From: Sinohyriopsis cumingii
Taxonomy: Eukaryota; Mollusca; Bivalvia; Unionida; Unionidae
Assembly: GCA_028554795.2 (NCBI GenBank)
Contig: CM068841.1
Span: forward strand, 25,539,308 to 25,603,307
Direction of reading: 5' to 3'
DNA length: 64,000 nt
Under the pieces are notes generated by a model, which was given only the letters and a program-made list of their open reading frames with translations, ran no database searches and had not been told where the DNA came from. A program made the translations under genes and the position numbers. Of the stretch, positions 5,348-23,433 are shown piece by piece (positions within the stretch are counted from its first letter, which is position 1; each line of letters starts with the position of its first letter).

Positions 5348-5686
5348 AGTAGTTAAGTGGGATACCCTACGTACAATGGGAATTAGCATTACAGGGACCC
5401 CTGGGACACTCTACGTACAATGGAAATTTAACATGGCGAAAAATCGTGGGACACTCTACGTACAAGGGGAATTTAACATGGCGAAAAATCGTGGGTCACT
5501 CTACGTACAAGGGGAATTTAACATGGGGGAATAGAGTTTGGGTTTGTTTAGGGACAAGGGGAATTGAACATGGGATTTTTTTTTTTCTTTTTTAAATTTT
5601 TTTTAAATTTAAATTTAAATTTAGGCAATTGAAAGGCTATTTCTTTTCGAGAAATATGGCTGGCCCTGAAAAGGGCCTTTGGGTTT
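5348..5686 (+). repeat. Left terminal inverted repeat of Polinton 1
   Basis: It pairs with 23096-23433 in reverse complement with few differences. The outer 190 bp contain tandem copies of a roughly 45-55-bp unit that starts GGGACACTCTACGTACAA and ends AACATGGCGAAAAATCGT. Next come a poly-T/AAATTT tract and, at the inner edge, the histone-like stem-loop block. The repeat therefore includes the 3' end of the outermost gene on each side. Confidence 0.93.
5662..5677 (-). terminator. Histone-type 3' stem-loop, copy a (left inverted repeat)
   Basis: On the minus strand it reads GGCCCT-TTTC-AGGGCC, a 6-bp stem with a 4-nt loop. It is preceded by CCCAAA and followed by AGCCA and, at about 5638-5650, by CGAAAAGAAATAG. 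It lies 24 bp after the stop of the small minus-strand gene 5702-5935. Metazoan histone mRNAs end in the same arrangement (stem-loop bound by SLBP, cleavage about 5 nt later, purine-rich element bound by U7 snRNA). Confidence 0.75.
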
Positions 5687-5701
5687 ATGTTAATGTATTC
5701 A

Positions 5702-5935
5702 TTAACATAAAGGGTACCGCATTGGTCTTCTTCTTGTCCTTAGGCTACGTCTCACTGTTGGTCCGTAAATCAGCACTCTTTTCAGGCATCCTTGTCTTTC
5801 AACGTAGATCCTACGTATCCACAGGCTGGTGTTTGTCCTGTGGACAACGGTCCACTTGGATCGGACATACATGGGTATGTCCGTCCGGAACATCATGGAA
5901 GACACAAGCGTAGAAGATTGCACATCGGTCCACAT
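5702..5935 (-). CDS. Small conserved Polinton end protein, 77 aa, function unknown
   Basis: Starts MWTDVQSSTLVSSMMFRTD and is basic at the C terminus (KRVLIYGPTVRRSLRTRRR region). I do not recognise the family. It is supported as real in three ways. A TATA box (TATAAAT on the minus strand, 5981-5988) lies about 53 bp before the ATG. A histone-like stem-loop follows the stop. Polinton 2 has the same frame at 31992-32210 with many conservative and third-position changes (MWTNVESSTLISSMLFRTD), broken only by one TGA. It is the outermost gene on the left, reading outward toward the inverted repeat. Positively charged and small, it could be regulatory or nucleic-acid binding, but that is a guess. 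Confidence 0.65.
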   Translation of the reverse strand: MWTDVQSSTLVSSMMFRTDIPMYVRSKWTVVHRTNTSLWIRRIYVERQGCLKRVLIYGPTVRRSLRTRRRPMRYPLC

Positions 5936-5980
5936 CTTGAAGCGACGAGAACAAGTGAATCAATGCACTGAACTGCGCTT

Positions 5981-5988
5981 ATTTATAG
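5981..5988 (-). promoter_or_regulatory. TATA box for the small minus-strand end gene
   Basis: TATAAAT on the minus strand, about 53 bp upstream of the ATG at 5935. The counterpart in Polinton 2 (TTATTTATAATGG region, about 32256-32270) keeps the same motif and spacing. Confidence 0.6.
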
Positions 5989-6100
5989 GTAGAGGTAGGA
6001 TTGAAACGGATTGAGTTCATTCACCAATCCAAACACGCGTTACAAAATTCAGTCAGCCCGCATCCAATCCGAAGAGAGTAGTCTGTGACGTTAGTTGGAC

Positions 6101-6107
6101 TATATAG
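6101..6107 (+). promoter_or_regulatory. TATA box (TATATAG) for the gene at 6155
   Basis: TATATAG lies 54 bp before the ATG. A TGACGTTA half-match to a CRE/ATF site lies about 15 bp upstream; Polinton 2 has a full TGACGTCA palindrome at the matching place (32359-32366). Confidence 0.6.
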
Positions 6108-6154
6108 ATTCGCTAGCGCTTGTGTGCAGTCAATCTATGCGACAGTGATTCAAC

Positions 6155-6715
6155 ATGACGGAAACTCAGAAAACGATCCATTGGGGTGCACCAGCAGGGG
6201 AGACTGCCCAAGGGAACCCGGACTTACTTTCAGAAGAGGTACATTGGGATTTTGTGGATTTTCTTACCTCGCAAGAATTTGTTCCGGAACCTTCGTTACC
6301 TTCTTCATTACCGCAAGTTGAGAATTTTAGACAGAGACAGAAAGAAGAATTGGAGAAATTTATGCAACGACAAAAGGAAGCGGAACAAGCTTTTCTCCTA
6401 CAGCAACAGCAACAGCAACAAGAAGAGGTAAGAAAAAAACAACAGCAACAACAGCAAGAAGAAGTAGCAGCAAAGAAACAAGAGGGTGAAAATCAAACGG
6501 CTACGGTACTGTTGGACATTTTAGCGGAGTTAAGAAGTCTGAAACAAATGTATCAGACTTCTTTATCACGACCGAAGAGAATACGACCTTCCCGAGCTAA
6601 ACACGCCAACCCTGTGACTAAGCCTGTCGTACCACCCTTAGTGATTTCAACCCAATCATCAGAAGTAGACCTTGGCCGTGGCAAAGGCTTAAGGCAGTTA
6701 AAGTTGATTGGTTAA
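6155..6715 (+). CDS. Gln-rich coiled-coil accessory protein, 186 aa
   Basis: The family is not recognised. The N-terminal 60 residues are acidic (MTETQKTIHWGAPAGE, then EVHWDFVDFLTSQEFVPEP). Residues about 65-115 are a Gln/Glu/Lys-rich coiled coil with two poly-Gln runs. A helix (VLLDILAELRSLKQMYQTS) follows, then a basic Pro-rich tail ending GRGKGLRQLKLIG. It has its own TATA box, and the stop is followed 25 bp later by a histone-like stem-loop. A decayed homologue lies at 32430-33061 in Polinton 2 with the same N terminus, coiled coil and GRGKGLRQ tail. Possibly a transcription-related or scaffold protein; no function can be assigned. Confidence 0.7.
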   Translation: MTETQKTIHWGAPAGETAQGNPDLLSEEVHWDFVDFLTSQEFVPEPSLPSSLPQVENFRQRQKEELEKFMQRQKEAEQAFLLQQQQQQQEEVRKKQQQQQQEEVAAKKQEGENQTATVLLDILAELRSLKQMYQTSLSRPKRIRPSRAKHANPVTKPVVPPLVISTQSSEVDLGRGKGLRQLKLIG

Positions 6716-6740
6716 ACTCACCCCTACACCAAAATAAAAA

Positions 6741-6756
6741 GGCCCTTTTCAGGGCC
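6741..6756 (+). terminator. Histone-type 3' stem-loop, copy b
   Basis: AAAA-GGCCCT-TTTC-AGGGCC-ACCCA, followed by CTCGAAAAGAAATA at about 6768-6780. This is the closest of all copies to the metazoan histone mRNA 3' end, including the A-rich 5' flank, UUUC loop, ACCCA 3' flank and a purine-rich box about 14 nt after the stem. The block continues with CAATTTGCCAAT. A poly(A) signal AATAAA (6807-6812) follows 50 bp later, so two alternative 3' ends are possible. Confidence 0.8.
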
Positions 6757-7007
6757 ACCCACATTTCTCGAAAAGAAATACAATTTCAATTTGCCAATAA
6801 CTCAAAAATAAACCCCAACCATTTTACCCTTATAGTACGTGTCTGTGTATGAGTGCGTGAGTGTAGCTTGTTATTTTAAAATCAAAACTCAAAGACACTT
6901 ACCTTATATCATTCATGTATTCTTTTATCCATTTTTTTACAATCCAATTCACAATTCACCACAGAACACTTTAATTAAAAGTTCATTGACTTCTTCTTTC
7001 TCCTTGT

Positions 7008-7478
7008 TTAGTCTCTCTGTTTTTTGAATTTCTTCACCGTTTTTACCTCATTTTCTTCCCTTCTTCTTTTCTTCTCCTGTTTCTTTGCTTCTTTTAAATA
7101 GAATTGTCTTCTTTCTTCCTCTTCTTCCTCTGAAGAATCTCTCTCTTCTTTCGAAGAATCCCTCTCTTCTTCCGAAGAATCCTTCTTTTCTTCTGACTCC
7201 TCTTGTTTCTTTTTTGGGCAATCTGGAGACCAATGTCCTTTTTCTTTACAATAATAACAGGTATCTTGACTTTTGTCTTTTTTAGCCCCTGTTTTTTTTC
7301 TTTTTTGACGGTCTGGACACTCTGAAGACCAATGCACTTTCTTCTGACAGATATAGCAAGTATCCTGACTCTTATCTCGAAAGGAAGGAGAGTAGTCCGT
7401 CGGCTGGTCTGAAGAGAATTTTCTAATGACCCCTCGCAAAGCTCTGACGAAACGTTCCATCTGGGTAGTCTCTTCCAT
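7008..7478 (-). CDS. Double CCHC zinc-knuckle protein, 156 aa
   Basis: Two CX2CX4HX4C knuckles (Cys41-Cys44-His49-Cys54 and Cys74-Cys77-His82-Cys87 from the chosen start) are followed by an acidic Glu/Ser repeat (EERDSS repeated) and a basic C terminus. CCHC knuckles bind single-stranded nucleic acid, as in retroviral nucleocapsid. I chose the start at 7478 (MEETTQMERF) because a TATA box (TATATAAAAA on the minus strand, 7531-7540) lies about 60 bp upstream of it, which leaves the longer in-frame ATG at 7556 upstream of the promoter. The Polinton 2 homologue (33377-33788) also starts MEEPTQ. It is divergent from the polymerase gene, with about 135 bp between starts. The role in the element is unknown. 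Confidence 0.75.
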   Translation of the reverse strand: MEETTQMERFVRALRGVIRKFSSDQPTDYSPSFRDKSQDTCYICQKKVHWSSECPDRQKRKKTGAKKDKSQDTCYYCKEKGHWSPDCPKKKQEESEEKKDSSEEERDSSKEERDSSEEEEEERRQFYLKEAKKQEKKRRREENEVKTVKKFKKQRD

Positions 7479-7530
7479 CGTTGTGCTCGGTTTGAGAGTG
7501 AAATGAATAGTGAAAAGACAAGACACACCC

Positions 7531-7566
7531 TTTTTATATACGCGCTGGTTTGCCATGACTATAAAT
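7531..7566. promoter_or_regulatory. Divergent promoter: TATA boxes for zinc-knuckle gene (-) and polymerase (+)
   Basis: TATATAAAAA on the minus strand (7531-7540) faces 7478. TATAAAT on the plus strand (7560-7566) lies 54 bp before the polymerase ATG at 7614. Both are in the 135-bp gap between the two divergent genes. Confidence 0.65.
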
Positions 7567-7613
7567 TAGTCTATGGTGTTTGAACTTGAGTCATTTGACG
7601 TTTTGCACTCAAG

Positions 7614-10600
7614 ATGAAACGATCCTATTCATTCGAGAAGAAAGAAGAAGAAGAAGAAAGTAAGAGGCAGAAACGTGATCTATCGCCTCGTACCAGGGAT
7701 GAAATCTTGGTACAAATTCATGCCAGTGATTTTGAAGAGGACATGAGTGAACCAGAATCCGAACCCTCTAAACCAAGTTCGTCACCCTTAGTCAACCCTG
7801 AAAAATACTATTCCATTCGAGAGACGGAAAAGCGCTCCTCTAGAAAATTTAGAACCACGGCTTACACCTACACGGTGAAATTTAAAGATTTCAAGGCCGA
7901 CGTACCCTTAGAGAAAGCAGAAGGGTTTATCACCGAGATGTGGGATTCTTTGCTCACTGCACTCAAGCGACAATGTCAACCCAAAGAAGACGATCGCTTG
8001 ACACTATCCATAGATCACGACGGTTTGAAATCCCCTGTTTGGATCGAGTTTAGCAGACCCACAGAACTGACCCCTTCCAAAGTCATGGACAAGATTCAAC
8101 ACGTACAACAATCTAATGACGAGTTTGACATCACCGATGGTAAAGCCACACTGAAAATGGCTCACGTCTCTCTTCCTCAAGGGACAGGACGCAAAAAGAT
8201 GTTATTGGTGGACGACCTTCGCAACATCAAAACAAGTCTCGTCCGAATTAACAACCCTCAAGACCAGATGTGTTTAGCTCGAGCCATCGTGGTGGGACGA
8301 ACCTATGCCAACAAGAACGACACGGTAGAATGGAAAAGAACCTGGAACACTATTCAACGTTCCTATCGAGCCAAACAACGAAACGAAGCAGAACTCCTGT
8401 TACAACAAGCCGGACTGTCCAAAGACACACCCTGTGGCATTCCTGAGATGCAAAAATTGCAAGATGCCCCAGCTCCACGCTACACCTTGAAAGTGCACCC
8501 TCAAGAAATGCGCGGGCCTCTGTTGTTTCGAGGCCAAGATTTTAAGGACGGAAAATACATTCATGTCTATCATCACGATGACCATTTCGATACGATTACC
8601 AGTATCACTGGATTCCTGGGATACGGTTATTATTGTGAGAAATGTGATTATGGTTATAACAATCGAGAGCAACACAAGCATTGTGGATTGAAATGCCCAG
8701 GATGTTTGGCCTCTCCACCCTGTCTGAGCGAAGAACCAGTGCCTTGTTCGACTTGTCTGCGTACGTTTGTCAGCCCTGCCTGTTACCAGCAACATCTGAA
8801 GACGCAAGGTTCACAGCAGAAATGTGCTTGTCAACTCTTGAGATTGTGCCCTACCTGTGGACAAGGCATACTTACCAACAATGCCAAGGCACACGTATGT
8901 CGAGGAAAGAAAAAATGTCACATTTGTCACCACATCGTGGACTTGGAACACGAATGCTACGTGCAAAAATACCATCCCCCACCAGAGAAAGAGGATGGTC
9001 ACAAGAAGAAAGTCAATTTCATCTTTTTCGATTTCGAATGCATGCAAGAGACCAGCATTCACATTCCTAATTTCTGCGTGGCTCATCGAGCGTGCGAGAA
9101 GTGCATTCAAGAACCTATCTTCAGTCATTGCCCTCACTGCAGCAAGATTCCCGGAGGGCGTGAAAAAATCTTTCGGGGACCAAACACGTTAGCCGATTTT
9201 GCCCAATGGGTCTTAGACCCCATCGACAAGACGTGGAGCCAAGAGGACATCGAACGTTACGGAGATTGTCATCGTCATGCCACAGTGATGGCTCACAATT
9301 TCTCCGGATACGATGGACAGTTTCTTTTGAGGTACTATACGGAACATGGCACCGAACGTCCTAAAGTGATTTTGAACGGAGCCAAAATCATTTTCATGCA
9401 AGTGGGACAAGTACAGTTTAAAGATTCGATGAGTTACTTGGCCATGCCTTTGAGCCGAATGCCTAAAACGTTTGGAATGACAGAAATGGCTAAAGGGTAC
9501 TTTCCACACTTTTTCAATACGGAAGCCAATCAACATGCTGTTCTACCCCATTTGCCTGAGGCTCACTATTACGACCCCGACAACATGCGTACCGAACAAC
9601 GAGAAGCTTTCTACGCTTGGTACCAAGCTCACGCCTCGGACCCTTTCGACTTTCAGGAAGAAATGTTAAAGTATTGTCGTTCCGACGTGGACATTTTACG
9701 GCGTTGCTGTGGAAAATTTCGAGAACTGTTCATGGAACACGGAGGGGTCGATCCTTTGAAAGAAGCTTGCACCATTGCCAAAGCGTGTTCCTTAGTGTAC
9801 CGCCAACGATTCATGCCTGAAAACACCGTGGCTGTCATCAGTCCTCAAACGACCCACTATGTCAAGCGTCAATACTCGGTCAAAGCCCTACGTTGGTTAC
9901 ATTACTTGTGCGACAAGGAAGACAAATGGATTCAGCATGCCCGCAAAGGAGGAGGCGAAAAGACCATCGGAACGTATTCGGTCGATGGCTGGGACTTAGA
10001 AAACTCCAAGATCGTGTACGAGTTTAACGGTTGCTTATTTCACGGATGTCCCGTCTGCTACCCTGACCGTGACACTAAAAATCAGTTTTTACAACGGACC
10101 ATGGAAGACCTGTACCAGGACACTTGTCAGCGACGCCTAAAGCTAGAACAGCAAGGATACCAAGTGGTGGAAATGTGGGAACACGAATACGATCACCGTA
10201 TGAAAACCGATCCCGAGTTTAAACGCCTCGTGGAAAGTTACCAGTTCATGGACCCGCTGAACCCGAGGGATAGTTTGTACGGAGGAAGGACCAATGCCAC
10301 CTGTTTGTTGTACCAAGCCGACGAAGAGAAAGGAGAAGAAATCAAATACTTGGACGTGTGTTCGCTGTATCCCTACGTGTGCAAATATTGTCGCTTTCCT
10401 GTAGGGCACCCGCAATTGCTGACGGAACACATCGACCTGAAAAACATTCGACAATACGAAGGCTTGATCAAGTGTAAATTTTGCCTCCCACGAACCTATA
10501 CCATCCCGTCTTACCTCACCATTGTCAAGGCAAACTGTTGTTTCCCTTGTGCCGTACTTGTGCCGAAACGTGCAACCAGGACCAACCTTGCCATCACAGC

Positions 10601-11679
10601 CAGGAAGAACGGGCCTTGACGGGAACCTGGGTCAGCGTGGAATTGTTCAAAGCTCTGGACATGGGATACCAACTGTTAGAAGTGTACGAAATTTGCCACT
10701 TTCCCAAGACACAACAGTACCACAAGGGTGACCCTACTCAGAAAGGCATTTTCGCCGACTACGTGGATGCCTTTTTGAAACTGAAGCAAGAAGCCAGCGG
10801 CTATCCTTCCTGGTGTCACACTCCCGAAGACCAAATAAAATTCAAAGAGAAATACTACGAACAAGAAGGCATCTCTTTAGACCACATCGAAAAAAACGAA
10901 GGCAGGCGATCGTTTGCCAAAGTGATGTTAAATTGCTTGTGGGGTAAAATGGCACAACGACCGTGTTTACCCAAGACGGAATATTTGACAGAACCTTCCC
11001 GCTACTTTCAGATGATTCACGACAAAACCAAATACATGAAACACGTGACGTCGTTCGAGAGGATTTGATCTTGGTCAATTACGAAGAAGATCTGGACTTT
11101 GTACAAGACGACCCTTTTGGAAATGTCATCATTGCGGCTTACGTGACAGCTCATGCTCGCTTAAAATTGTACGAAGCTTTAGAACTGTTAGAAGAACGCG
11201 TCCTGTACTTTGACACGGACAGTTGCATTTACATCCATCACCCGAGTCAACAGCACCCTGACATCGAAGGAGACCGTTTAGGAGCCTGGACAGACGAGCA
11301 TCCCGACGACAAGATTCTAAGTTTCGTCAGTGGTGGTCCCAAAAATTACGGCTACGAATACCGGGACAAACAAGGAGAAGTGCACACGACGTGCAAAGTG
11401 AAAGGACTGACTCTGAATCATCGTACCAGTCGAGTGGTCAACTTTGGGGTATTGAAAGAAGCCTTGCAATCGGGAGAGGATGGAAACTTTAAAGTGACCA
11501 CCTATCAACCGAACAAGATTGTACGTTTACCCACTCACCACATCGTCAGTCGACCCTTGGAAAAAGTCTATCAAATTGTATACCAGAAGCGAGTGCGACT
11601 TCCCAATCACTTCACCTTACCGTACGGTCACGTCGGTATTGGTCTGTATATGAAAAGGAACCCTAGGCAAGATCGATAG
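7614..11679 (+). CDS. polB: Protein-primed DNA polymerase B (Polinton PolB), two frameshifts
   Basis: The replicative enzyme of the element. In order: a charged N terminus; a Cys/His-rich zinc region at residues about 340-455; the 3'-5' exonuclease with Exo I (FFDFECMQE, about 473), Exo II ([12 protein letters not shown], about 560) and Exo III (YCRSDVDIL, about 690); and the palm with motif A ([11 protein letters not shown], about 912), motif B ([13 protein letters not shown], near 10920) and motif C (YFDTDSCIY, near 11210). The full gene would be about 1,350 aa, normal for Polintons. Reading changes frame by one base near 10478 and again near 11046. Motifs A, B and C therefore fall in three different frames, and the copy as assembled cannot make a full polymerase. 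Partial relatives lie at 33922-36844 and 62342-63512. The start has a TATA box 54 bp upstream. Confidence 0.93.
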
Positions 11680-11706
11680 TTCATTGTTCATTGAAGTAAC
11701 TTACCA

Positions 11707-12107
11707 TGTCGTTGACGAAGAAGAAACCAGACTGGTTAGGAGTCAAATGTTGGACATCACCGAGACCAGGGTTTTGAGGCTTGGACACAAGAGGTGGCCT
11801 AGTATGCACGAGAGTTATTCAAGGAAAAAAGTTACTTTTCAACCTGTGTTAGTGACGGTGCCAGAAGAACCCGTCACCCAGGACAGGACTGTCGTGGACA
11901 GGCCTGAAAGACCCTTTCGGGAGGACACTTGTGTGACCTTACCCCTACTATAGAACTGGTTAGAACTTTACCCAAAACATGTTGTACAGACACTTGTGTT
12001 TATTCCACGTTGATGGTTATCATGTGCCTTTTATTCTTGTACTTAAGCCTTTGGCTTTTATGTATTTTTTGTCTTTCGTATTCATGTTTGAAAAAAACAT
12101 TCAATAA
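11707..12107 (+). other. Short reading frames after PolB, possible broken membrane protein
   Basis: An interval of about 400 bp between PolB and the ATPase. Three frames each hold a plausible piece: a Lys/Arg/Glu-rich stretch (11684-11953) and hydrophobic runs such as LLFLYLSLWLLCIFCL at about 12020-12080. One frame ends in TAA within CAATAAA at 12102-12108, a layout typical of compact viral genes. The pieces do not join in one frame, so I treat this as a possible disrupted small membrane-protein gene. The AATAAA at 12103-12108 is a likely 3' end for the polymerase transcript. Confidence 0.3.
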
Positions 12108-12123
12108 ACGTGTTCTGAAAAAG

Positions 12124-12130
12124 TATATAA
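12124..12130 (+). promoter_or_regulatory. TATA box for the ATPase gene
   Basis: TATATAA, 55 bp before the ATG at 12179 and directly after the poly(A) signal of the preceding transcript. Confidence 0.6.
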
Positions 12131-12178
12131 ACTCTTGTCTTGTTTGTTTTTCGTGTCACAAGTGACATTTCTCACACC

Positions 12179-12922
12179 ATGGCTACCTCTGCTGTCTCTG
12201 CTCCCTCTTTCTCTACTGTCAAAGTCATCGACGAACACTTAGATCGTGCCAGTTGGGAGGCTTTGTATCTTCGCCATCCTTTTAACATGCTCATTGCTGG
12301 ACCTAGCGGTTCAGGCAAAACCGAATTCGTCAAACGTTTGATCGAACATAAACATCATTTGATTGATCGATCCCCTCAACGAATCGTGTGGTGTTACAAA
12401 GAGTGGCAATCGGCGTACAGCCTCTTGCGAGAAAGTCAAGGCGATTCCATCGTGTTTGTGGAAGGCATTCCTAAAGAAGACGATGGCATCGTCTCTGACT
12501 CCCGTCTAACCCATTTGGTCATTTTCGACGACATGTTAGGAGAAGACGAAGAAGAAATTAAACTGTGGTTCACGCGCAAAGGGCATCACCGTAATGCCAG
12601 TGTCGTTTACATCACCCAAAATTTGTTTCAACAAAGTAAAGCCCATCGCACCATCAGTCTCAATGCGCATTACGTGGTCTTGTTTAAAAGCCCTCGAGAT
12701 AAATCGCAAGTGCAAGTCTTAGCCAAACAGTTAGGAACGCCTTGGTTGACTCAGGCGTACGACGATGCCACTCAAACTCCACACGCCTATTTACTCGTCG
12801 ATTTGAAACCTACGACTCCCGAGGATTTGCGATTTCGTACCCACTTGTTTCACCACTGGTGCCAAGACGGAGGGCCTGTCCTGTACACGTCTCCGTCCTC
12901 GACTTCATTTCACTCCCCATAA
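12179..12922 (+). CDS. Genome-packaging ATPase (A32/FtsK-HerA family), 247 aa
   Basis: Walker A (GPSGSGKTEFVKRLI, residues about 41-55) is followed by Walker B (LVIFDDMLGE, about 113-122) and an Asn/Gln-containing sensor region (VVYITQNLFQQ). This is the order of poxvirus A32-like packaging ATPases, which pump DNA into the capsid and are found in all Polintons with capsid genes. I chose the ATG at 12179 because it follows the TATA box and gives MATSAVSAPSF; an upstream alternative lies too close to the TATA. The frame is intact. It belongs with the capsid genes downstream. Polinton 2 lost this gene by deletion; a distant homologue of the other Polinton type is at 50451-51101. Confidence 0.92.
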   Translation: MATSAVSAPSFSTVKVIDEHLDRASWEALYLRHPFNMLIAGPSGSGKTEFVKRLIEHKHHLIDRSPQRIVWCYKEWQSAYSLLRESQGDSIVFVEGIPKEDDGIVSDSRLTHLVIFDDMLGEDEEEIKLWFTRKGHHRNASVVYITQNLFQQSKAHRTISLNAHYVVLFKSPRDKSQVQVLAKQLGTPWLTQAYDDATQTPHAYLLVDLKPTTPEDLRFRTHLFHHWCQDGGPVLYTSPSSTSFHSP

Positions 12923-12930
12923 AAAAAATC

Positions 12931-12937
12931 TATAAAA
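12931..12937 (+). promoter_or_regulatory. TATA box for the basic protein gene
   Basis: TATAAAA, 9 bp after the ATPase stop codon and 48 bp before the next ATG (12979). Confidence 0.55.
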
Positions 12938-12978
12938 ACCTCAGACCCTTTTTCGTCTGTCTCACTCTCAGTGCGAAC

Positions 12979-14344: not shown

Positions 14345-14392
14345 AAAGGCCTCGGAAGTTCCAAGATCTCAGAATCGACCCCTGACAACCCC

Positions 14393-15031
14393 ATGGAAGG
14401 ACGAAAACTAGCTTTAGTACCTTACAAACAATGGATGGAATACCATCGGTGGCAAGAACAACACACCCCGCATTTACCTCCCAATCCCCATTTGAGCGAG
14501 ATGTCCCAGTTACAACACGAATTGCAGTCCTTGATGGATCGCCAAGATTTGTCCGAAACAGAAAAATCGCAAAAGTACGGTCAACTCTTGCAACGACTGC
14601 AACTCTTTCACCAGAAAGCTTTAGACGAAACAGCTCTACCCACTCTGAAAGATTTTAAGACCTTGATGAAAAGTCCAGCACCATCACCAGTACCAGTACC
14701 AGTACCACCAGTACCCGTGACCAAGACAGAAAAAGGAGAAGAAGAGAAAGGGTTTCAAACTCCACCAGAAAAAGTACGGAAGTTAACAACACCACCTACC
14801 TCCAGAATTGGATGGATTAAAAAGATGATGGCCACCCCTTCTTCCTCACAAGAGAAAAAGAAAGTGAAGACAGAAGTGAAGACAGAAGTGAAACAAGAAC
14901 CGATATCTCCCGCTCAGACATCCTTCTCCTCTTCGACACCGATTGCTGGCCGCACACGCAAAGCATTGCAATCCAAGAAAATACCCCAAGAAAAAAAGAG
15001 TAGCATCCTCCAAGAGTGGGTGTCTTATTAA
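14393..15031 (+). CDS. Conserved Polinton protein of unknown function, 212 aa
   Basis: It starts MEGRKLALVPYKQWMEYHRW. Next is a helical segment with LQHELQSLMDRQDLSETEK and KYGQLLQRLQLFHQKAL (residues about 40-80), then a Pro/Val-rich spacer (PVPVPVPPVPV), a Lys/Glu-rich region with two KTEVKTEVKQEP-like repeats and a basic end. The K-x-LVP start followed by an LSE.EK...YGQLLQR helix recurs in proteins of other Polintons, always between pX-like and integrase genes, so I take it as a conserved structural or core protein. A weak TATA (GATAAAAA, about 14340-14347) lies 52 bp before the ATG and overlaps the stop of the previous gene. Intact frame. Confidence 0.65.
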   Translation: MEGRKLALVPYKQWMEYHRWQEQHTPHLPPNPHLSEMSQLQHELQSLMDRQDLSETEKSQKYGQLLQRLQLFHQKALDETALPTLKDFKTLMKSPAPSPVPVPVPPVPVTKTEKGEEEKGFQTPPEKVRKLTTPPTSRIGWIKKMMATPSSSQEKKKVKTEVKTEVKQEPISPAQTSFSSSTPIAGRTRKALQSKKIPQEKKSSILQEWVSY

Positions 15032-15054
15032 CACACCAACCAACACAAAAAAAA

Positions 15055-16164: not shown

Positions 16165-16169
16165 CCATC

Positions 16170-16589
16170 ATGCCCTTTCACACAGTAGACGCAGCTTCGT
16201 CGACCACTCCTCCTTCACCTAGTTCTTCTGTGCAAGATTTACAAAAACAACCCTTGTGGGTGTGATGTGGAGAACGTGTGCCTAAAACGCAAATCGTCTT
16301 TTTCTGCCAAATCTTCGTGGTGTATTGTGTCATCGGGGCAGCCATCGCCAATTTGAGTTTGCAACAAGGAGACAAACAATTGTGGACCATTTTATTGAGC
16401 AGTTGCATCGGTTACCTGCTTCCTAATCCCTCCCTGAAATTCACCTCGAACGGGAACCCCGGGAACCTTGTGTCCAGTGCCAGTGCCAGTCACCACTTCA
16501 ACCACAACCAGAACCCCATTTTAGACGGAGACACGCCTCTGACGTCCAGTAATATCCCCTCGGACAGCCACAGAACTCTGGAATTATGA
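16170..16589 (+). CDS. Small two-segment membrane protein of Polintons, in-frame TGA
   Basis: A polar N terminus (MPFHTVDAASSTTPPSPSSS) runs to a TGA at 16263-16265. The same frame then continues with two hydrophobic segments (VFFCQIFVVYCVIGAAIANL and LWTILLSSCIGYLLPNPSL) and a polar tail. A protein with the LWxxLLSSCIGYLLPxPxL ending recurs in many Polintons next to the penton gene and is likely a virion or host-membrane protein. The end overlaps the penton start by 4 bp (ATGA), suggesting coupled expression. No ATG exists between the TGA and the hydrophobic part, so this copy probably lacks a functional product. Confidence 0.6.
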
Positions 16590-17515
16590 GTCACCAAAAC
16601 CAATTTTACTTAACCTTACCCAGTGACAGTTCCATGGAGGTGTTTCCCAAGAACACGTTGTGCTGTTACACGGCCAAATTACCTCAAGCCATCCAGTTAG
16701 ATCACGAAGCCCATTGGGAAGTGGCTTTAGTAGAAATGATTCACCCGACCCAAGTCCTCAATGTCCTTCCCAATCAAAATTTTATTGATGTGGAAGTTCA
16801 TGACGAGCAAATGCAACAGTGGATGGATAGCAATGTCAAATATGACAAGAAAACCCGTACACAAAATCAAAAGTACACCACCTATCACTTGTTCATTCCC
16901 CGAGGCTATTATTTTAGTGGTCAACATTTGGTCAGCACCATAACCTCCAGGTTTAATGTCGTGTTTCTGAAAGCTTTGGAGCATGTCAACAAAAGTGTCA
17001 CCATGGAGTACCACAAAACAGCTCGTCGCTTCTTGATGAAATTTGAACGGAGTAAAATCATGTCCATTTTATTTTGTCCTGAATTGTTTGACATGTTGGG
17101 CGGAGACATGGACATGAGAAAGACCATGATCAAGAAAAACGAATTACCCATCGTTTACGACAACGAGTCTTTTAGCAAGTTATTTCGTGCCCCGGTAGAA
17201 CTGAACCAAGGACTGAATTTGATGTTTGTGTACTCCGATGTGGTGGAGTATAACGTGGTGGGACACACCTCCGTACCGTTACTGCGTGTCATTCCTTTCA
17301 AAGTAGATTCTGCCACGGGCGCTGACGAGGAAGGTGGAAACACTTACCACGTCCACCGCGAATTTGTCCATCCTCACTATTTGCCTGTCAGCAAGTCGTA
17401 TTTGGACACGGTCAACATTGCTATAAAAGGAGATCTGGGACAAAATATTCCATTCACCAAAGGAAAAGTCACGGTGAAACTCCATTTTCGAAAACGGTTC
17501 TCTCACGACTCGTAA
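16586..17515 (+). CDS. Penton (minor capsid protein), 309 aa
   Basis: The start (MSHQNQFYLTLPSDSSMEVF, then NTLCCYTAKLPQAIQL and WEVALVEMIHP) is the signature of the Polinton minor capsid/penton family, a single jelly-roll protein that caps the five-fold vertices of the icosahedral shell. Intact and of normal family length. It overlaps the membrane protein gene by 4 bp and is followed 7 bp later by the pVI-like gene. A TATA box for the next gene lies inside its 3' end. The Polinton 2 remnant (36846-37331) starts in the middle of this gene because of a deletion. Confidence 0.88.
   Translation: MSHQNQFYLTLPSDSSMEVFPKNTLCCYTAKLPQAIQLDHEAHWEVALVEMIHPTQVLNVLPNQNFIDVEVHDEQMQQWMDSNVKYDKKTRTQNQKYTTYHLFIPRGYYFSGQHLVSTITSRFNVVFLKALEHVNKSVTMEYHKTARRFLMKFERSKIMSILFCPELFDMLGGDMDMRKTMIKKNELPIVYDNESFSKLFRAPVELNQGLNLMFVYSDVVEYNVVGHTSVPLLRVIPFKVDSATGADEEGGNTYHVHREFVHPHYLPVSKSYLDTVNIAIKGDLGQNIPFTKGKVTVKLHFRKRFSHDS
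17422..17429 (+). promoter_or_regulatory. TATA box inside the penton gene
   Basis: TATAAAAG about 100 bp before the ATG of the pVI-like gene. The same bases with the same neighbours (ATTGCTATAAAAGGAGATC) are kept in the decayed Polinton 2 at about 37241, where the surrounding coding sequence is broken. Confidence 0.5.
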
Positions 17516-17522
17516 GTAAGTC

Positions 17523-17939
17523 ATGTATCCAGTGTACCGAGGGGTTGCTCGACAGCGAGGACACGGCTTAGGAGATATGTTAAAATCGGCCTTTCGTTCG
17601 GTGGCCCCAGTGTTGAAACCGATGGTGACCCGCGGATTGCACGCCTTGAAAGATGCGGCACTGACGCAAGGCAAAGAATTTCTCCAAAATGTCATCATCG
17701 ACAAACAAGACCCTAAAGAAGCCTTCATGAGGGCAGGCAAAAATGTCTTGCTGCAAACGGGCAAAGACATTTTAGGCCAACGAGAAACACCTATAAATGC
17801 CCTGCACGCTACCGAGTCAGGCATTCAGCAAGGACAAGGCAGAAAGAGACGACGAAGAAAACACCCTTTCACCAGACTTCAAGCGAGAAAGGCCAAGAAA
17901 AGAAGAACCGTTCGAGACTTAGACGTTTTCGATTATTGA
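17523..17939 (+). CDS. pVI-like minor virion protein, 138 aa
   Basis: It begins MYPVYRGVARQRGHGLGDML followed by KSAFRSVAPVLKPMV, a Gly-rich amphipathic start typical of the small protein placed between penton and capsid genes in Polintons, which has been compared with adenovirus protein VI (membrane lytic, capsid interior). It ends in a strongly basic tail (GRKRRRRKHPF, ARKAKKRRTVRDLDVFDY). Intact frame; 7 bp after penton and 17 bp before the capsid ATG. Homologue with breaks at 37340-37780. The pVI comparison rests on position, size and composition and is tentative. Confidence 0.7.
   Translation: MYPVYRGVARQRGHGLGDMLKSAFRSVAPVLKPMVTRGLHALKDAALTQGKEFLQNVIIDKQDPKEAFMRAGKNVLLQTGKDILGQRETPINALHATESGIQQGQGRKRRRRKHPFTRLQARKAKKRRTVRDLDVFDY
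17792..17798 (+). promoter_or_regulatory. TATA box inside the pVI-like gene
   Basis: TATAAAT about 165 bp before the capsid protein ATG at 17957. Confidence 0.35.
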
Positions 17940-17956
17940 GAAAAAAGAGACAAAAA

Positions 17957-19270
17957 ATGATGCACCGAGAATCTTGCGCTTGTTCCAAGACGGAACTGGA
18001 TCTGTTTGCCATGCCCTCCACGATGATGACGATGCAAGAATCCCAGTGGGTGGAATTTCACCCCGTCTCCTCACTGACCGATTCCGCTCCCATCGAGTTT
18101 GAAATCAAAGGACAGCCCGAAGATTACATCGATCTGAATAGCAGTTACTTGTACCTGAAAGTCAAAATTCTAGATAAGACTGGAGGTGCTATAGACGATG
18201 AAGCAGTAGCTCCCGTCAACAATTTCATGCATTCCTTGTTCAGTGGAGTGGACTTGTACTTGAATAACAAACTGGTCAGTAGCAGCATGGATACTTACCC
18301 TTATCGTGCCTACCTGGAAAATCTCTTGACGTACGGAATAGATGCCAAGAACACTCATCTCAATGCCTGTGTGGTATGGGAAGCTGACGAACCTACCAAG
18401 TTTGAAATATTGGAAACTGATGAAAAGAAAGACAACAATGATGGATTTGTAGAACGAAGAAAGAGAATCACGGGAGCCGACACAAGTTTAGAACTGATGG
18501 ATCGTTTGCATTTGGACATGTGGTTGCAAGAAAAGTATTTGCTGAACGGGGTGGATGTCCGCCTGAGACTGAATCGTAGCAGTGCCGCTTTCCATTTGAT
18601 GGCTGATAGTGACGGTTACAAAACCAAAATCCTAGAAGCCAGACTCTACGTACGCCGTGTGGAAGTGTTACCTAAAGTGGGAAACGACATCAGTCAGACG
18701 TTGAGTAGAACGACCGCCAAGTATCCAATACGACGCGTGGAAGTGAAAACCTTCACCATTCCCAAGGGACAGCGATCCATGATCGAAGATCATCTGTTCC
18801 AAGGACAGTTACCCAAACGTTTGATCGTTGGTATCGTCGAGAATACAGCCTTCAACGGAGCTGCCGAAAAAAATCCTTTCTACTTTCAACACTTTGGCGT
18901 GTCCAAAATCGAAGTCAGTCGCGATGGCAAGACCTTGTGTACCCGACCTTCCGAACCTGACTTTACCAAGAAGAATTACTTGAGATCGTACTTGTCCCTG
19001 TACGAAGCCACCGGACAGTTAGGAACCAATACCAGTCACGGTATTACGTACGAGGATTATGCAGGAGGCTACGCTTTGTGGGCTTTCGATTTCACTCCAG
19101 ACCAAGGCAGCGACGAGGGACATTTCCACCCTATAAAATCCGGCCAGATTCGTGTGGAAATTCAGTTTAAAGACCGAGACCCTGATGAAACGGTGAACGT
19201 CATCCTGTATGCAGAATTCGATAATGCCATAGAAATCAACAGTTTGAGAGAAGTCATCCTAGATTACTAG
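17957..19270 (+). CDS. Major capsid protein (double jelly-roll), 437 aa
   Basis: MMHRESCACSKTELDLFAMP opens a protein with the usual Polinton capsid order: WVEFHPVSSLTDSAPIEFEI, EDYIDLNSSYLYLKVKI, APVNNFMHSLFSGVDLYLNN and DTYPYRAYLENLLTYG, then a second half ending NVILYAEFDNAIEINSLREV. This fold builds the icosahedral shell. The frame is intact. I chose 17957 because the Polinton 2 copy begins MMHKESCACF at the same place. A TATA-like box lies inside the preceding gene and another for the next gene lies at 19132 inside its own 3' end. It is the last core gene before AATAAA signals at 19379 and 19475. Confidence 0.93.
   Translation: MMHRESCACSKTELDLFAMPSTMMTMQESQWVEFHPVSSLTDSAPIEFEIKGQPEDYIDLNSSYLYLKVKILDKTGGAIDDEAVAPVNNFMHSLFSGVDLYLNNKLVSSSMDTYPYRAYLENLLTYGIDAKNTHLNACVVWEADEPTKFEILETDEKKDNNDGFVERRKRITGADTSLELMDRLHLDMWLQEKYLLNGVDVRLRLNRSSAAFHLMADSDGYKTKILEARLYVRRVEVLPKVGNDISQTLSRTTAKYPIRRVEVKTFTIPKGQRSMIEDHLFQGQLPKRLIVGIVENTAFNGAAEKNPFYFQHFGVSKIEVSRDGKTLCTRPSEPDFTKKNYLRSYLSLYEATGQLGTNTSHGITYEDYAGGYALWAFDFTPDQGSDEGHFHPIKSGQIRVEIQFKDRDPDETVNVILYAEFDNAIEINSLREVILDY
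19132..19138 (+). promoter_or_regulatory. TATA box inside the capsid gene
   Basis: TATAAAA about 144 bp before the ATG at 19276, the stub of the gene that precedes the protease in Polinton 2. Confidence 0.4.
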
Positions 19271-19275
19271 AAACC

Positions 19276-19362
19276 ATGGAAGACTGTTATCCCTCTTTAC
19301 CTAGTGGAGAAACTTTTAGTGTTGGATTATTGTTAAAAAATGTTAGAGTTCTTGTTGTTTAG
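19276..19362 (+). pseudogene. Stub of the post-capsid gene; protease region deleted
   Basis: MEDCYPSLPSGE matches the start of the gene at 39003 in Polinton 2 (MEDTYHPNGG). After a few codons the sequence jumps to the AT-rich trailer that in Polinton 2 follows the protease (TTGAATAAAAAATG). About 1 kb containing the Cys/His gene and the adenain-type protease is therefore missing from Polinton 1. Confidence 0.7.
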
Positions 19363-19502
19363 TGTTAAGTGATTTTTGAATAAAAAATGTGTTTTGAAAA
19401 AAATTGTTTGATGTTATATTGTTGGATTATTGTTAAAAATGTTAGAGTTGTTGTTTAGTGTTAAGTGATTTTTGAATAAAAAATGTTGTGTTTTGAAAAA
19501 AA
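19321..19502 (+). repeat. Two tandem 100-bp copies with AATAAA signals
   Basis: GTTGGATTATTGTTAAAAA begins at 19321 and again at 19421, each followed by GTTTAGTGTTAAGTGA and TTGAATAAAAAATG. The duplication sits at the deletion junction and doubles the poly(A) signal (19379-19384, 19475-19480) that ends the capsid gene block. Confidence 0.85.
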
Positions 19503-19607
19503 TGCCTTTGTCTTTTGTTTAGCTATAAGAATGTTGGATTGATGCTCTTTCATTTCTTACTATCCCTCTCATGACACTCACTAAACGTTGCGACTCAAAA
19601 ACCGTGT

Positions 19608-19646
19608 GGGGGATGTTTTCCTTCACGTCCGCGCTTTGACTTTAAG
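19608..19646 (+). promoter_or_regulatory. Right-arm promoter P1 (CACGTCCGCGC box plus TATA-like)
   Basis: GGGGGATGTTTTCCTTCACG followed by TCCGCGCTTTGACTTTAAG. The TATA-like TTTAAGAACC ends about 55 bp before the ATG at 19700. The same box occurs before 20560 and 22697 and, decayed, before three Polinton 2 genes. Confidence 0.7.
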
Positions 19647-19699
19647 AACCGGGTTGTTTCCAGTCTAACCATCCATTGTCGACTCATCCTCCTACGAAG

Positions 19700-20062
19700 A
19701 TGTGCTCCAAACTAGCTAAACTCAACGAAGCCTACGTGAATTTGCATAGGGTCAGACACAGTCTGATACCGAAGCCAGAAGAAATAGAGAATGTGAGAAT
19801 GTTAAAAATCACTGAAGACCTGATAGAAGAGCTCTTCAGAGAAGAAATGAACAGGGAAAAAGAAGAATGGACAGAGAAGTACAGACTTCAGAGACAGCAG
19901 CAACAACAACAACAACAAGAGCAGCAGCAACAGCAACCTGAACCTGACAGAGGCTTTGTCGATTGCCGTATCGACACCAAAGAGTTCTTCTTTTCTTTCA
20001 GAAGAAGCAGACCTATCGCCAGAAAGTCTATCCTCAGAGGACATCGCATTCTTAGAAACTAA
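19700..20062 (+). CDS. Right-arm accessory protein 1, Gln-rich coiled coil, 120 aa
   Basis: The N-terminal helix MCSKLAKLNEAYVNLHRVRH and IPKPEEIENVRML is followed by a Glu/Arg helix (LIEELFREEMNREKEEW), a poly-Gln run and a basic Ser/Arg tail. The family is not recognised. The N terminus resembles the next gene (SKLLELHVHLEYARRLLNEL), so the right-arm genes may be tandem paralogues. It has its own promoter (19608-19646) and a histone-like stem-loop 30 bp after the stop. The Polinton 2 homologue (40376-40735) keeps the sequence but has a stop at codon 10. Start chosen at the first ATG, shared with that homologue. Confidence 0.65.
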   Translation: MCSKLAKLNEAYVNLHRVRHSLIPKPEEIENVRMLKITEDLIEELFREEMNREKEEWTEKYRLQRQQQQQQQQEQQQQQPEPDRGFVDCRIDTKEFFFSFRRSRPIARKSILRGHRILRN

Positions 20063-20091
20063 AAAAAGAATGCCATAGCAAACAAAAAAAC

Positions 20092-20107
20092 AGCCCTTTT
20101 CAGGGCT
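20092..20107 (+). terminator. Histone-type 3' stem-loop, copy c
   Basis: AAAAAAAC-AGCCCT-TTTC-AGGGCT-ACCCCA, then CTAGAAAAGAAATA at about 20119-20132 and ATTTGCCAAT. The lowest base pair is A-T here instead of G-C in copies a, b and e, a compensatory change that keeps the stem. AATAAA follows at 20173-20178. Confidence 0.75.
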
Positions 20108-20413
20108 ACCCCAATACTCTAGAAAAGAAATAACGATCGATTTGCCAATGTGTGTAGGTAGAGTAGTGTGAAAATAAACACTAACTCTTTTTTAAAAAAT
20201 GTGAGGGTATGTGTTTGTGTGTTTGTGTTTGTAAGTGGTTAAGTAAGTTGGTATGGATAGTAGATTAAAATGATGTTTTTTTTGGTGTTTGAGGTGTATA
20301 TTTGGAGTCAGATTGGATTGCTTTGCGTATGTGGATAGTCTATTGAAGTGATTTATAAAAAATTTTAAAATAGTGATGGGTAGCATAAAAAAGTGAGTGA
20401 GTGTTTCTTTTAG

Positions 20414-20511
20414 GTCCGCGCGTTGTTGTTTTTGGTCATGATGTAGGTAACATCAATATGTTTTTTAGGGGTAATGTTTTCCTTCACGTCCGCGCTTTCA
20501 CTATAAATTGA
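20414..20511 (+). promoter_or_regulatory. Right-arm promoter P2, distal and proximal boxes
   Basis: A distal box (GGTCCGCGCGTTGT, 20413-20426, followed by GGTCATGATGTAGGTAA) lies about 65 bp before the proximal box (TTTTCCTTCACGTCCGCGC, from about 20476). TATAAATTGAAAC lies about 58 bp before the ATG at 20560. The same two-box layout recurs before 22697 and at 41001-41098. Confidence 0.7.
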
Positions 20512-20559
20512 AACTCGCTGGGCAGTCTAGCTACCCTTGTTGATTGATCAACACCAAAA

Positions 20560-20886
20560 ATGAACACGAGACTGTCTAAACTGTTGGAACTTCATGTGCA
20601 TCTGGAATATGCCAGGCGCCTGTTGAATGAACTGGCCGCGGAAGCCATTGTGGAGGAGGGAAGGATAAGAGAGGAGGAGGAAAGAAGAAAAAAAGAAGAG
20701 GAGGAGAGAAGATATAAAGAAGAAGAAGAAGAGGAAAGAAGATACAAAGAGGAGGAGAGAAGAAACAAAGAAGAGGAGGAGGAGAAGGAAAAGAAGAGAA
20801 GAAGAATAAATTTCAGAATCCCAGAGAGCGAAAATTGGGATTCTGAAGCGACATATCCTGCCTCTGCTCTCTCCCCCAAAAAGTAA
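20560..20886 (+). CDS. Right-arm accessory protein 2, Glu/Lys/Arg coiled coil, 108 aa
   Basis: The helical N terminus (MNTRLSKLLELHVHLEYARR, LLNELAAEAIVEEG) is followed by about 50 residues of nearly pure Glu/Lys/Arg coiled coil and an acidic-polar tail (FRIPESENWDSEATYPASAL). The family is unknown. Polinton 2 has the same N terminus at 41144 (SLELEIHLEYARRLLDDLA) and, in a downstream piece, the same tail. Both ends are thus kept while the low-complexity middle changes, a sign that the ends are what is selected. Own promoter; stem-loop 87 bp after the stop. Confidence 0.65.
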   Translation: MNTRLSKLLELHVHLEYARRLLNELAAEAIVEEGRIREEEERRKKEEEERRYKEEEEEERRYKEEERRNKEEEEEKEKKRRRINFRIPESENWDSEATYPASALSPKK

Positions 20887-20973
20887 AAAGTAACTGGGGG
20901 ATAAGATGTGTATGTGGCGCCAGGCCTGGAAGGTGCCACCATTAACCAGGTGTCCATGAAGTTCCAAAAAAAC

Positions 20974-20989
20974 AGCCCTTTTCAGGGCT
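20974..20989 (+). terminator. Histone-type 3' stem-loop, copy d
   Basis: AAAAAAC-AGCCCT-TTTC-AGGGCT-ACCCA, followed by CTAGAAAAGAAATAACC at about 20999-21015 and CAATTTGCCAAT. Same stem variant as copy c. Confidence 0.75.
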
Positions 20990-21129
20990 ACCCAATACTC
21001 TAGAAAAGAAATAACCATCAATTTGCCAATGTGTAGGTAGAGTAGTGTGAATATAAACACTAACTCTTTTCTAAGATAGTGTGAGGGTATGTGTTTGTGT
21101 GTTGGTGCTTGTAAGAGCTAAGGTATGTT

Positions 21130-22520
21130 TGTGGGAATAGTAGATTATGGGTTTCTTTATTGTTTCTTAGCGTAGGTGAAGAGTATAGTTAGGGTTCTGT
21201 AACCGCTCACGTACGATTGTGTGGATAGTAGATTATGGATTTTGTTTATTGTTTCTTAGCGTATGTGGAGAGTATAGTTTGGGTTTTGTAACCGCTCACG
21301 TACGATTGTGTGGATAGTAGATTATGGATTTGTTTATTGTTTCTTAGCGTATGTGAAGAGTATAGTTTGGGTTTTGTAACCGCTCACGTACGATTGTGAG
21401 GATAGTAGATTATGGATTTTGTTTATTGTTTCTTAGCGTATGTGTTTGTGTGTTTGTGTTTGTGTGTTTGTGTTTGTACCCGCTCAAGTACGATTGTGTG
21501 GATAGTAGATTATGGATTTGTTTATTGTTTCTTAGCGTATGTGGAGAGTATAGTTTGGGTTTTGTAAGCGCTCACGTACGATTGTGAGGATAGTAGATTA
21601 TGGATTTTGTTTATTGTTTCTTAGTGTATGTGTTTGTGTGTTTGTGTTTGTGTGTTTGTGTTTGTACCCGCTCACGTAAGATTGTGTGGATAGTAGATTA
21701 TGGATTTGTTTATTGTTTCTTAGCGTATGTGGAGAGTATAGTTTGGGTTTTGTAAGCGCTCACGTACGATTGTGAGGATAGTAGATTATGGATTTTGTTT
21801 ATTGTTTCTTAGCGTATGTGTTTGTGTGTTTGTGTTTGTGTGTTTGTGTTTGTGTGTTTGTGTTTGTACCCGCTCACGTACGATTGTGTGGATAGTAGAT
21901 TATGGATTTGTTTATTGTTTCTTAGCGTATGTGAAGAGTATAGTTTGGGTTTTGTAACCGCTCACGTACGATTGTGAGGATAGTAGATTATGGATTTTGT
22001 TTATTGTTTCTTAGCGTATGTGTTTGTGTGTTTGTGTTTGTGTGTTTGTGTTTGTACCCGCTCACGTACGATTGTGTGGATAGTAGATTATGGATTTGTT
22101 TATTGTTTCTTAGCGTATGTGGAGAGTATAGTTTGGGTTTTGTAACCGCTCACGTACGATTGTGAGGATAGTAGATTATGGATTTTGTTTATTGTTTCTT
22201 AGCGTATGTGTTTGTGTGTTTGTGTTTGTGTGTTTGTGTTTGTACCCGCTCACGTACGATTGTGTGGATAGTAGAATATGGATTTGTTTATTGTTTCTTA
22301 GCGTATGTGGAGAGTATAGTTTGGGTTTTGTAAGCGCTCACGTACGATTGTGAGGATAGTAGATTATGGATTTTGTTTATTGTTTCTTAGCGTATGTGTT
22401 TGTGTGTTTGTGTTTGTGTGTTTGTGTTTGTACCCGCTCACGTAAGATTGTGTGGATAGTAGATTATGGATTTGTTTATTGTTTCTTAGCGTATGTGGAG
22501 AGTATAGTTTGGGTTTTATT
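21130..22520 (+). repeat. Minisatellite with 188-bp higher-order unit
   Basis: About 15 head-to-tail units alternate between an 88-bp form (CGCTCACGTACGATTGTG, GGATAGTAGATTATGGATT, CTTAGCGTATGTGGAGAG) and a 100-bp form in which the end is replaced by GTGTTTGTGTGTTTGTG repeats. Together they form a 188-bp unit; units begin for example at 21396, 21584, 21772, 21974 and 22162 (one is 202 bp). Open frames within it are by-products of the period. Polinton 2 has a degenerate array at the same place (41825-42385) that shares GTGTGGATAGTA. Confidence 0.9.
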
Positions 22521-22537
22521 ATATGAAATGAAAAAGT

Positions 22538-22650
22538 AGGGGATGTTTTCCTTCACGTCCGCGCGTTGTTTGGCCATGATCTAGGTAAGATCATTTTTAC
22601 GTTTTAGGGGGATGTTTTTCCTTCACGTACGCGCTTTAAGTATAAGAACC
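22538..22650 (+). promoter_or_regulatory. Right-arm promoter P3, distal and proximal boxes
   Basis: GGGGATGTTTTCCTTCACG-TCCGCGCGTTGTTTGGCC (22538-22575) and, about 70 bp later, GGGGGATGTTTTTCCTTCAC-GTACGCGCTTTAAG with TATAAGAACC at about 22641, 56 bp before the ATG at 22697. Confidence 0.7.
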
Positions 22651-22696
22651 CACATTATTCGTCGTTCAAACCATTCTGCAAAGAATAAAAAAGAAG

Positions 22697-23086
22697 ATGG
22701 CTTCTAACCAAATGGACAAAATACAAACATTACAAGACGTTTTAGACAACTTAGGAATGATGGAGCAGATGTTGATAAGACTGGTTGAAGACCATTATTC
22801 CTATAGTCCCCATCGTGTAAAGATGGAAATTAATAACTTAAAAAAGGTAAAGGACAAGATTAGTGGTGTCATGAAAGAGATAAAGGAGGAGAAGGAGGAT
22901 GAAGAGGAAAGAATAAGAATAAGCAAATGGAACGAAAAGATTGAAAAAGAAGAAGAAAATGAGAAGAGGAAGAAAGAAGAGGAGGAAGAGAAGAAGAAAG
23001 AAGAGCAGGAGAAAAAAAAGAAAGAAAAGAAGAGAAAGAGTGTTGGAGATAAAATAAGAACTTGGTGGAGAAAAAGAAGAAACTAG
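22697..23086 (+). CDS. Right-arm accessory protein 3, charged coiled coil, 129 aa
   Basis: It begins MASNQMDKIQTLQDVLDNLG, MMEQMLIRLVEDHYSYSPHR, then about 75 residues rich in Glu and Lys and a basic end (KRKSVGDKIRTWWRKRR). The family is unknown. It has the same plan as the two preceding genes: a short leucine-rich helix, then a charged coiled coil. Own two-box promoter; the stop is 20 bp before stem-loop copy e in the right inverted repeat. Polinton 2 has at this place a different sequence (42487-42852), so this slot is either fast-evolving or exchanged. Confidence 0.65.
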   Translation: MASNQMDKIQTLQDVLDNLGMMEQMLIRLVEDHYSYSPHRVKMEINNLKKVKDKISGVMKEIKEEKEDEEERIRISKWNEKIEKEEENEKRKKEEEEEKKKEEQEKKKKEKKRKSVGDKIRTWWRKRRN

Positions 23087-23095
23087 AAGCAGAAG

Positions 23096-23433
23096 AAAAC
23101 CCAAAGGCCCTTTTCAGGGCCAGCCATATTTCTCGAAAAGAGATAGCCTTTCAATTGCCTAAATTTAAATTTAAATTTAAAAAAATTTAAAAAAAAAAAA
23201 AAAAATCCCATGTTCAATTCCCCTTGTCCCTAAACAAAACCAAACTCTATTCCCCCATGTTAAATTCCCTTTGTACGTAGAGTGACCCACGATTTTTCGC
23301 CATGTTAAATTCCCCTTGTACGTAGAGTGTCCCACGATTTTTCGCCATGTTAAATTTCCATTGTACGTAGAGTGTCCCAGGGGTCCCTGTAATGCTAATT
23401 CCCATTGTACGTAGGGTATCCCACTTAACTACT
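23096..23433 (-). repeat. Right terminal inverted repeat of Polinton 1
   Basis: Reverse complement of 5348-5686, ending CTTAACTACT and followed by CTCTGT (23434-23439). Confidence 0.93.
23106..23121 (+). terminator. Histone-type 3' stem-loop, copy e (right inverted repeat)
   Basis: CCAAA-GGCCCT-TTTC-AGGGCC-AGCCA, then CTCGAAAAGAGATAG at about 23132-23146 and CAATTGCC. It is the mirror partner of copy a, since both lie within the inverted repeats and serve the outermost outward-reading gene at each end. Confidence 0.75.

Follow-up and report, generated by a model that had tools for sequence, protein, structure and literature searches.

Histone-type 3′-end hairpins follow the accessory genes of a Polinton family in the bivalve Sinohyriopsis cumingii

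Metazoan replication-dependent histone mRNAs end in a hairpin recognized by SLBP, followed by a purine-rich histone downstream element (HDE); the hairpin is represented in Rfam by RF00032 (Histone3). Such 3′ ends are regarded as a mark of replication-dependent histone genes. In mouse, pairing between the box core AAAGAG and the CUCUUU of U7 small nuclear RNA is established (PMC7026596), and in the bivalve Lucina pectinata the palindrome is reported for all histone mRNAs and nearby purine elements for some of them only (PMC6210712). Outside histone genes, the closest precedent is a genome collection of polinton-like viruses and virophages for which six histone 3′UTR stem-loops are listed; in section 16 of that paper they go undiscussed, as a bare count without genes, context or function (PMC12220804). 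Here we describe RNA elements of this class in the Polintons (Mavericks), a group related to those viruses, in a stretch of 64,000 nucleotides from the bivalve Sinohyriopsis cumingii (GCA_028554795.2, contig CM068841.1, positions 25,539,308 to 25,603,307 of the forward strand; hereinafter the window, whose numbering is used throughout). The window holds two such elements, Polinton 1 and Polinton 2, in which histone-type hairpins with a downstream purine box follow the small accessory genes A–E or their counterparts; the signal is known, but its setting is new. A first-pass annotation of this DNA had proposed these hairpins and knew of no report of them in Polintons or adintoviruses. In the open-licence literature we likewise came across no account of such 3′ ends for Polintons or adintovirus-like elements, and the six listed stem-loops now have to be set beside that statement.

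The Histone3 covariance model (curated cut-off 34 bits), run on the window, matches all ten proposed hairpins on the claimed strand and returns no further match there at E values up to 10. Four exceed the cut-off (b, 41.2; e′, 36.4; e, 35.6; a, 35.5 bits) and six fall below it (d, 31.0; b′, 30.5; c, 29.3; c′, 27.0; a′, 26.0; d′, 19.8 bits), with E values over the whole window from 6e-5 to 0.96, the last being that of d′. In Polinton 1, hairpin a (5662–5677, minus strand) stands 24 nt past the stop of gene A with the box GAAAAGAAAT 13 nt beyond it; the other four are on the plus strand, namely b (6741–6756), 25 nt past the stop of B with the same HDE-like box at 6770–6779 (plus strand, 13 nt past the stem), c (20092–20107), 29 nt past C with its box at 20122–20131, d (20974–20989), 87 nt past D with its box at 21003–21012, and e (23106–23121), 19 nt past E with its box at 23135–23144. 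In Polinton 2, a′ (31936–31951) is on the minus strand and has a decayed box, while b′ (33088–33103, box 33117–33126), c′ (40774–40789, box 40804–40813), d′ (41691–41706, box 41721–41730) and e′ (43097–43112, altered box from 43126) are on the plus strand. The hairpins face the same way as the gene upstream of them and keep a set distance to its stop.

The hairpin-plus-box module as observed is confirmed, with some trimming of the original description. The 6-bp stem attributed to every copy holds in eight, a′ and d′ each having one A–C mismatch at the second stem pair; the G–U pair of b′ and the TTTT loop of e′ are present as described. Nine of the ten hairpins follow a gene stop on the same strand, the exception being e′, before which no counterpart of gene E was found (tblastn, E up to 1e-3). 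The GAAAAG-type box, placed by the annotation about 14 nt downstream, lies 13–14 nt past the stem in eight of the ten; in e′ it reads GGAAAG, and in a′ it is lost. The reported covariation of the lowest stem pair exists, being G–C in A, B and E and A–T in C and D; since it tracks gene class, it may reflect a single event. Furthermore, a/e and a′/e′ lie within terminal inverted repeats, so that each pair amounts to two copies of a single sequence and the ten hairpins are not independent; c and d have a common 3′ flank.

The host's own histone genes provide the most direct comparison. A Pfam histone search of the host genome (150 of 662 candidates scored) uncovered tandem histone repeats of ~8.3 kb, one unit of which (L096) encodes H3, H4, H2B, H2A and H1. 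All five genes end in a Histone3 hairpin (35.0–39.4 bits), 28, 27, 34, 35 and 38 nt past their respective stops, with GAAAAG again 13–14 nt past the stem. The Polinton ends thus resemble those of the host repeat in their hairpin, in the letters and spacing of the box and in stop distance, gene D with its gap of ~90 nt excepted, and have the metazoan histone hairpin with a TTTC or TTTT loop, an A-rich 5′ flank and an ACC-type 3′ flank. They differ from histone mRNAs in that they follow viral accessory genes, that the hairpins of the C/D class open with an A–U pair and that the D gap is longer. This match with the host genes supports the earlier assignment of the ends to the architecture of replication-dependent histone mRNAs. 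Even finer likenesses are seen: CTAGAAAAGA is common to host H3, H4, H2B and H1 and to Polinton hairpins c, d and c′ (three of the ten), and a block past the purine box, CAATTT(T)GCCA, is found both in the Polinton A–E ends and in host H2A, a hint of capture from a histone gene. We know of no element resembling this block in histone mRNAs.

The module belongs to a multicopy Polinton family in the host genome. A Histone3 search of the 2.9-Gb assembly gave 75 scored matches out of 589472 first-look candidates, all 75 listed matches lying above the cut-off; among 14 control genomes one (Lactococcus lactis) matched, below the cut-off. The strongest of the listed host-genome sites, up to 45.6 bits, are Polinton gene ends. 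The counts given below rest on the 68 matches that were fetched (7 were not) and 20 further stretches. A gene of the Polinton 1 family adjoins the hairpin in 66 of the 68 fetched loci by tblastn, and the other two (L042 and L071) have family-like open reading frames (ORFs), assigned by eye. In some copies (L004, L008, L071 and L072, near 900–1500) the E-position gene is a different ORF with the same hairpin after it, which we read as a possible exchange of accessory cassettes.

In the copies of this family that were examined, the hairpin is confined to accessory genes. As each locus had been chosen by one hairpin, only the other stops were counted in the 88 loci scanned; a gene counted only if aligned to within 8% of its end, and a hairpin only if it had at least 5 pairs and at most one departure from the pattern and lay near the stop. 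By this rule a hairpin follows 73 of 77 unselected accessory stops (A 11/11, B 25/27, C 17/19, D 20/20), and three of the four that fail retain a 4-pair remnant; all 7 stops of gene E were themselves selected matches and are excluded from this count. At core-gene stops the tally is 0 of 41, comprising the zinc-knuckle gene (0/8), integrase (0/1), minor capsid protein (0/2), the next ORF of the capsid block (0/13) and the major capsid protein (MCP; 0/17), with one of the eight zinc-knuckle stops having a weaker candidate with two departures. Under a looser rule, hairpin c is found in 18 of the 20 stretches fetched to test it. The Histone3 model, run on 19 of these 20 stretches, gives a concordant result: the never-selected gene C hairpin is recovered in 14 of them, always below the cut-off (E up to 0.027), and the 68 kb searched has no further Histone3 match at E values up to 1.

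Conservation was assessed within gene classes (19 sequences for A, 43 for B, 19 for C, 20 for D and 7 for E, selected ones included). Mean pairwise identity is 0.94–0.98 for the stem-loop and 0.81–0.98 for the box, and the spacer from +21 to +28 is less conserved than either in B, C, D and E. Between Polinton 1 and Polinton 2, the 26-nt hairpin core is 81–96% identical as against 35–73% in the sequence lying 75–170 nt downstream.

The hairpin, the box, their spacing and strand, the restriction to accessory genes, the match with host histone genes and the recurrence across copies together point to use of the host pathway. We consider it highly probable that the A–E transcripts use the host SLBP/U7 pathway of histone 3′-end formation and that the capsid-protease block relies on ordinary polyadenylation. 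Host SLBP would bind the hairpin of the accessory gene and the host U7 small nuclear ribonucleoprotein would pair with the purine box 13–14 nt farther on; cleavage a few nucleotides past the stem would yield an mRNA lacking a poly(A) tail, with the capsid-protease block being ordinarily polyadenylated. Two classes of mRNA would result: accessory ones tied to the histone-mRNA machinery, and probably to a phase of the cell cycle, and structural ones free of that tie. Use of SLBP and U7, cleavage, absence of a poly(A) tail, linkage to S phase and any benefit to the element are what we infer from these ends, the S-phase linkage by extension from the regulation of histone mRNA described in other animals (PMC5011920).

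Several observations weigh against this reading. The copies share ancestry, and hence the stop counts are not independent. The class A box (0.81) is no better conserved than the sequence preceding the hairpin (0.85), and in the comparison of Polinton 1 with Polinton 2 the box region (55–79%) shows no clear excess of conservation over the adjacent sequence. Of 109 accessory stops examined, 34 have AATAAA or ATTAAA in the span that begins 30 nt ahead of the stop and reaches ~300 nt beyond it (A 7/19, B 18/44, C 6/19, D 0/20, E 3/7). A pattern search for host U7 gave 3 hits, all of them lacking a clear 3′ stem, versus 3 and 5 in the reversed control; the Rfam U7 model had no match in the host and none in any control either. 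Finally, Histone3 has no match in four other Polinton contigs (see below), one of which (L009) ends 1.3 kb past the MCP gene and in the other three of which the terminal genes are not established.

Regarding polyadenylation signals, those near accessory stops could possibly be the sole end of these transcripts. They are also found near 7 of 8 zinc-knuckle stops and, within 300 nt, at none of 17 MCP stops, the latter because the capsid block runs on. Eight copies were read in this region: all have a second ORF close behind the MCP gene, in six an adenovirus-protease-like ORF comes next, whole or partial (Peptidase_C5, E 0.02, below the cut-off, in the one copy tested), and in seven AATAAA lies between the MCP gene and gene C. 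The gene classes split clearly by the hairpin and not by AATAAA.

Some of these points would also suit a history in which a single capture of a host histone 3′ end was followed by its spread through gene duplication and with the terminal repeats, leaving what is now an unused passenger on polyadenylated transcripts. The shared 3′ flank of c and d, the origin of a and e as terminal-repeat copies, the H2A-like CAATTT(T)GCCA block, the polyadenylation signals at about a third of the accessory stops and the indifferent conservation of the box region between the two elements all fit such a history. Against it, the hairpin outlasts its surroundings both within gene classes and between Polinton 1 and Polinton 2, whose alignable proteins are ~31–85% alike; it is rarely lost, as the stop counts attest; and it is kept behind differing E-position ORFs. 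We hold a disused passenger to be improbable. It is still harder to favor a scheme in which some other viral or host protein reads the hairpin for the stability or export of an ordinary polyadenylated mRNA, without U7 cleavage: host SLBP and U7 were not identified, which leaves room for another reader, but retention of a U7-type box at histone spacing, in letters common with the host histone genes, makes this very unlikely. We rejected a DNA-level role of the hairpins as terminal-repeat or internal palindromes in replication, packaging or recombination as barely credible, since, despite a and e lying inside terminal inverted repeats, b, c and d are internal, orientation follows the upstream gene at a set stop distance, and the non-palindromic box and the A-rich and ACC flanks match host histone genes.

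Returning to the host-pathway reading, the 5′ ends of the accessory genes offer a further layer. The 19-nt box sequence TTTTCCTTCACGTCCGCGC, allowing as many as 4 mismatches, lies 71–91 nt upstream of the ATG in 39 of 41 C, D and E starts and at none of 113 other starts; in Polinton 1 the promoter-like copy upstream of C is at 19616–19634 (plus strand), with more at 20477, 22546 and 22616. We propose that it marks a putative promoter class shared by C, D and E. Weaker copies are seen in Polinton 2 at 41065 and 42409. A and B diverge from a single intergenic region of ~220 bp (5935–6155) that is TATA-like on the A side and does not have the C/D/E box. As C, D and E share the upstream box and A and B do not have it, the 3′ module is common to two promoter types. 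We would tentatively, and with somewhat less than even confidence, picture early accessory genes expressed from both promoter types as histone-type, non-polyadenylated mRNAs stable in S phase, and late capsid genes as poly(A) mRNAs, with the host histone machinery acting as the sensor by which viral genes are expressed in step with DNA replication. To our knowledge, no animal DNA virus has such a strategy. If use of the SLBP/U7 pathway holds true, virus-like elements would be its second natural user, on a defined subset of their genes; the module would give a handle on the timing of Polinton expression, and poly(A)-selected RNA data would miss the accessory genes.

Polinton 1 is bounded by terminal inverted repeats at 5348–5686 (holding hairpin a) and 23097–23433 (holding hairpin e), whose arms are 96–98% complementary. 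It encodes a polymerase, an rve integrase, capsid proteins, small accessory ORFs and a packaging-type ATPase, the last resembling at the 24% level another ATPase of the window, a Pox_A32-like one. Terminal inverted repeats, a family B polymerase, an rve integrase and capsid genes are the features by which Polintons/Mavericks and adintovirus-like elements are recognized, and Polinton 1 has them all; the weak adenovirus-protease match in one copy adds to the likeness. Among the accessory genes, A (5702–5935, minus strand) encodes a basic protein of 77 aa with a Polinton 2 counterpart at 71% and is present in other copies; B (6155–6715, plus strand) one of 186 aa, rich in Q, E and K with a basic motif close to its end and 20 homologues, all without an organism name; C (19700–20062, plus strand) one of 120 aa with tblastn matches in Polinton 2 and other copies; D (20560–20886, plus strand) one of 108 aa with a Polinton 2 counterpart at 31%; and E (22697–23086, plus strand) one of 129 aa for which no counterpart was found in Polinton 2. 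In Pfam, A, C and D have no family, and B and E have sub-cut-off matches only, none of them to a histone. A virally encoded SLBP among these proteins was considered and rejected, there being no Pfam match in its support. The genes used for comparison include the zinc-knuckle gene (7008–7556, minus strand; zf-CCHC, 1.8e-10), which has no hairpin, the first open part of DNA polymerase B (7614–10619, plus strand; DNA_pol_B_2, 7.3e-28), with none inside or after it, and the likewise hairpin-free MCP gene (17957–19270, plus strand; AATAAA at 19379 and 19475). The MCP has 1006 homologues, and the animals named among the best 120 of these are bivalve molluscs.

Polinton 2, with terminal inverted repeats at 31504–31959 and 43089–43541 (arms 87–92% complementary) and pieces of polymerase and capsid genes, is a broken relative of Polinton 1, to which it is 31–85% identical where the two align. 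Counterparts of A, B, C and D stand before a′, b′, c′ and d′, respectively. It has no match to the ATPase or integrase of Polinton 1, nor to the Polinton 1 genes from the polymerase to the minor capsid gene, and the flanking matches almost abut (36841–36847), as after an internal deletion. Sequences at 50451–52574 and 62343–62591 look like remnants of other Polintons, with a Pox_A32-like ATPase and an rve integrase 24–29% like those of Polinton 1 and a polymerase piece at 72%; Histone3 has no match in either.

Turning to relatives, scans of a viral contig collection with the MCP, an MCP alignment and the polymerase found none, and two hairpin patterns had 0 matches there. Searching genome contigs with the MCP alignment retrieved four Polinton contigs (L009–L012) with MCPs 27–45% identical. 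These lie in bacterial metagenome-assembled genomes, namely those of endosymbionts of Escarpia and Bathymodiolus, of Breoghania and of a member of the Rickettsiaceae, and probably represent contamination with animal DNA. One gene B homologue without an organism name (P0133) continues beyond the point where the protein normally stops; the added residues, WPISGPPTSLEKRY, are consistent with translation of a hairpin and purine box, and the module may therefore exist in another species. Lastly, between genes D and E, Polinton 1 has an array of repeats (21161–22540) with recurring short ORFs and a minus-strand AATAAA every ~90–110 nt.

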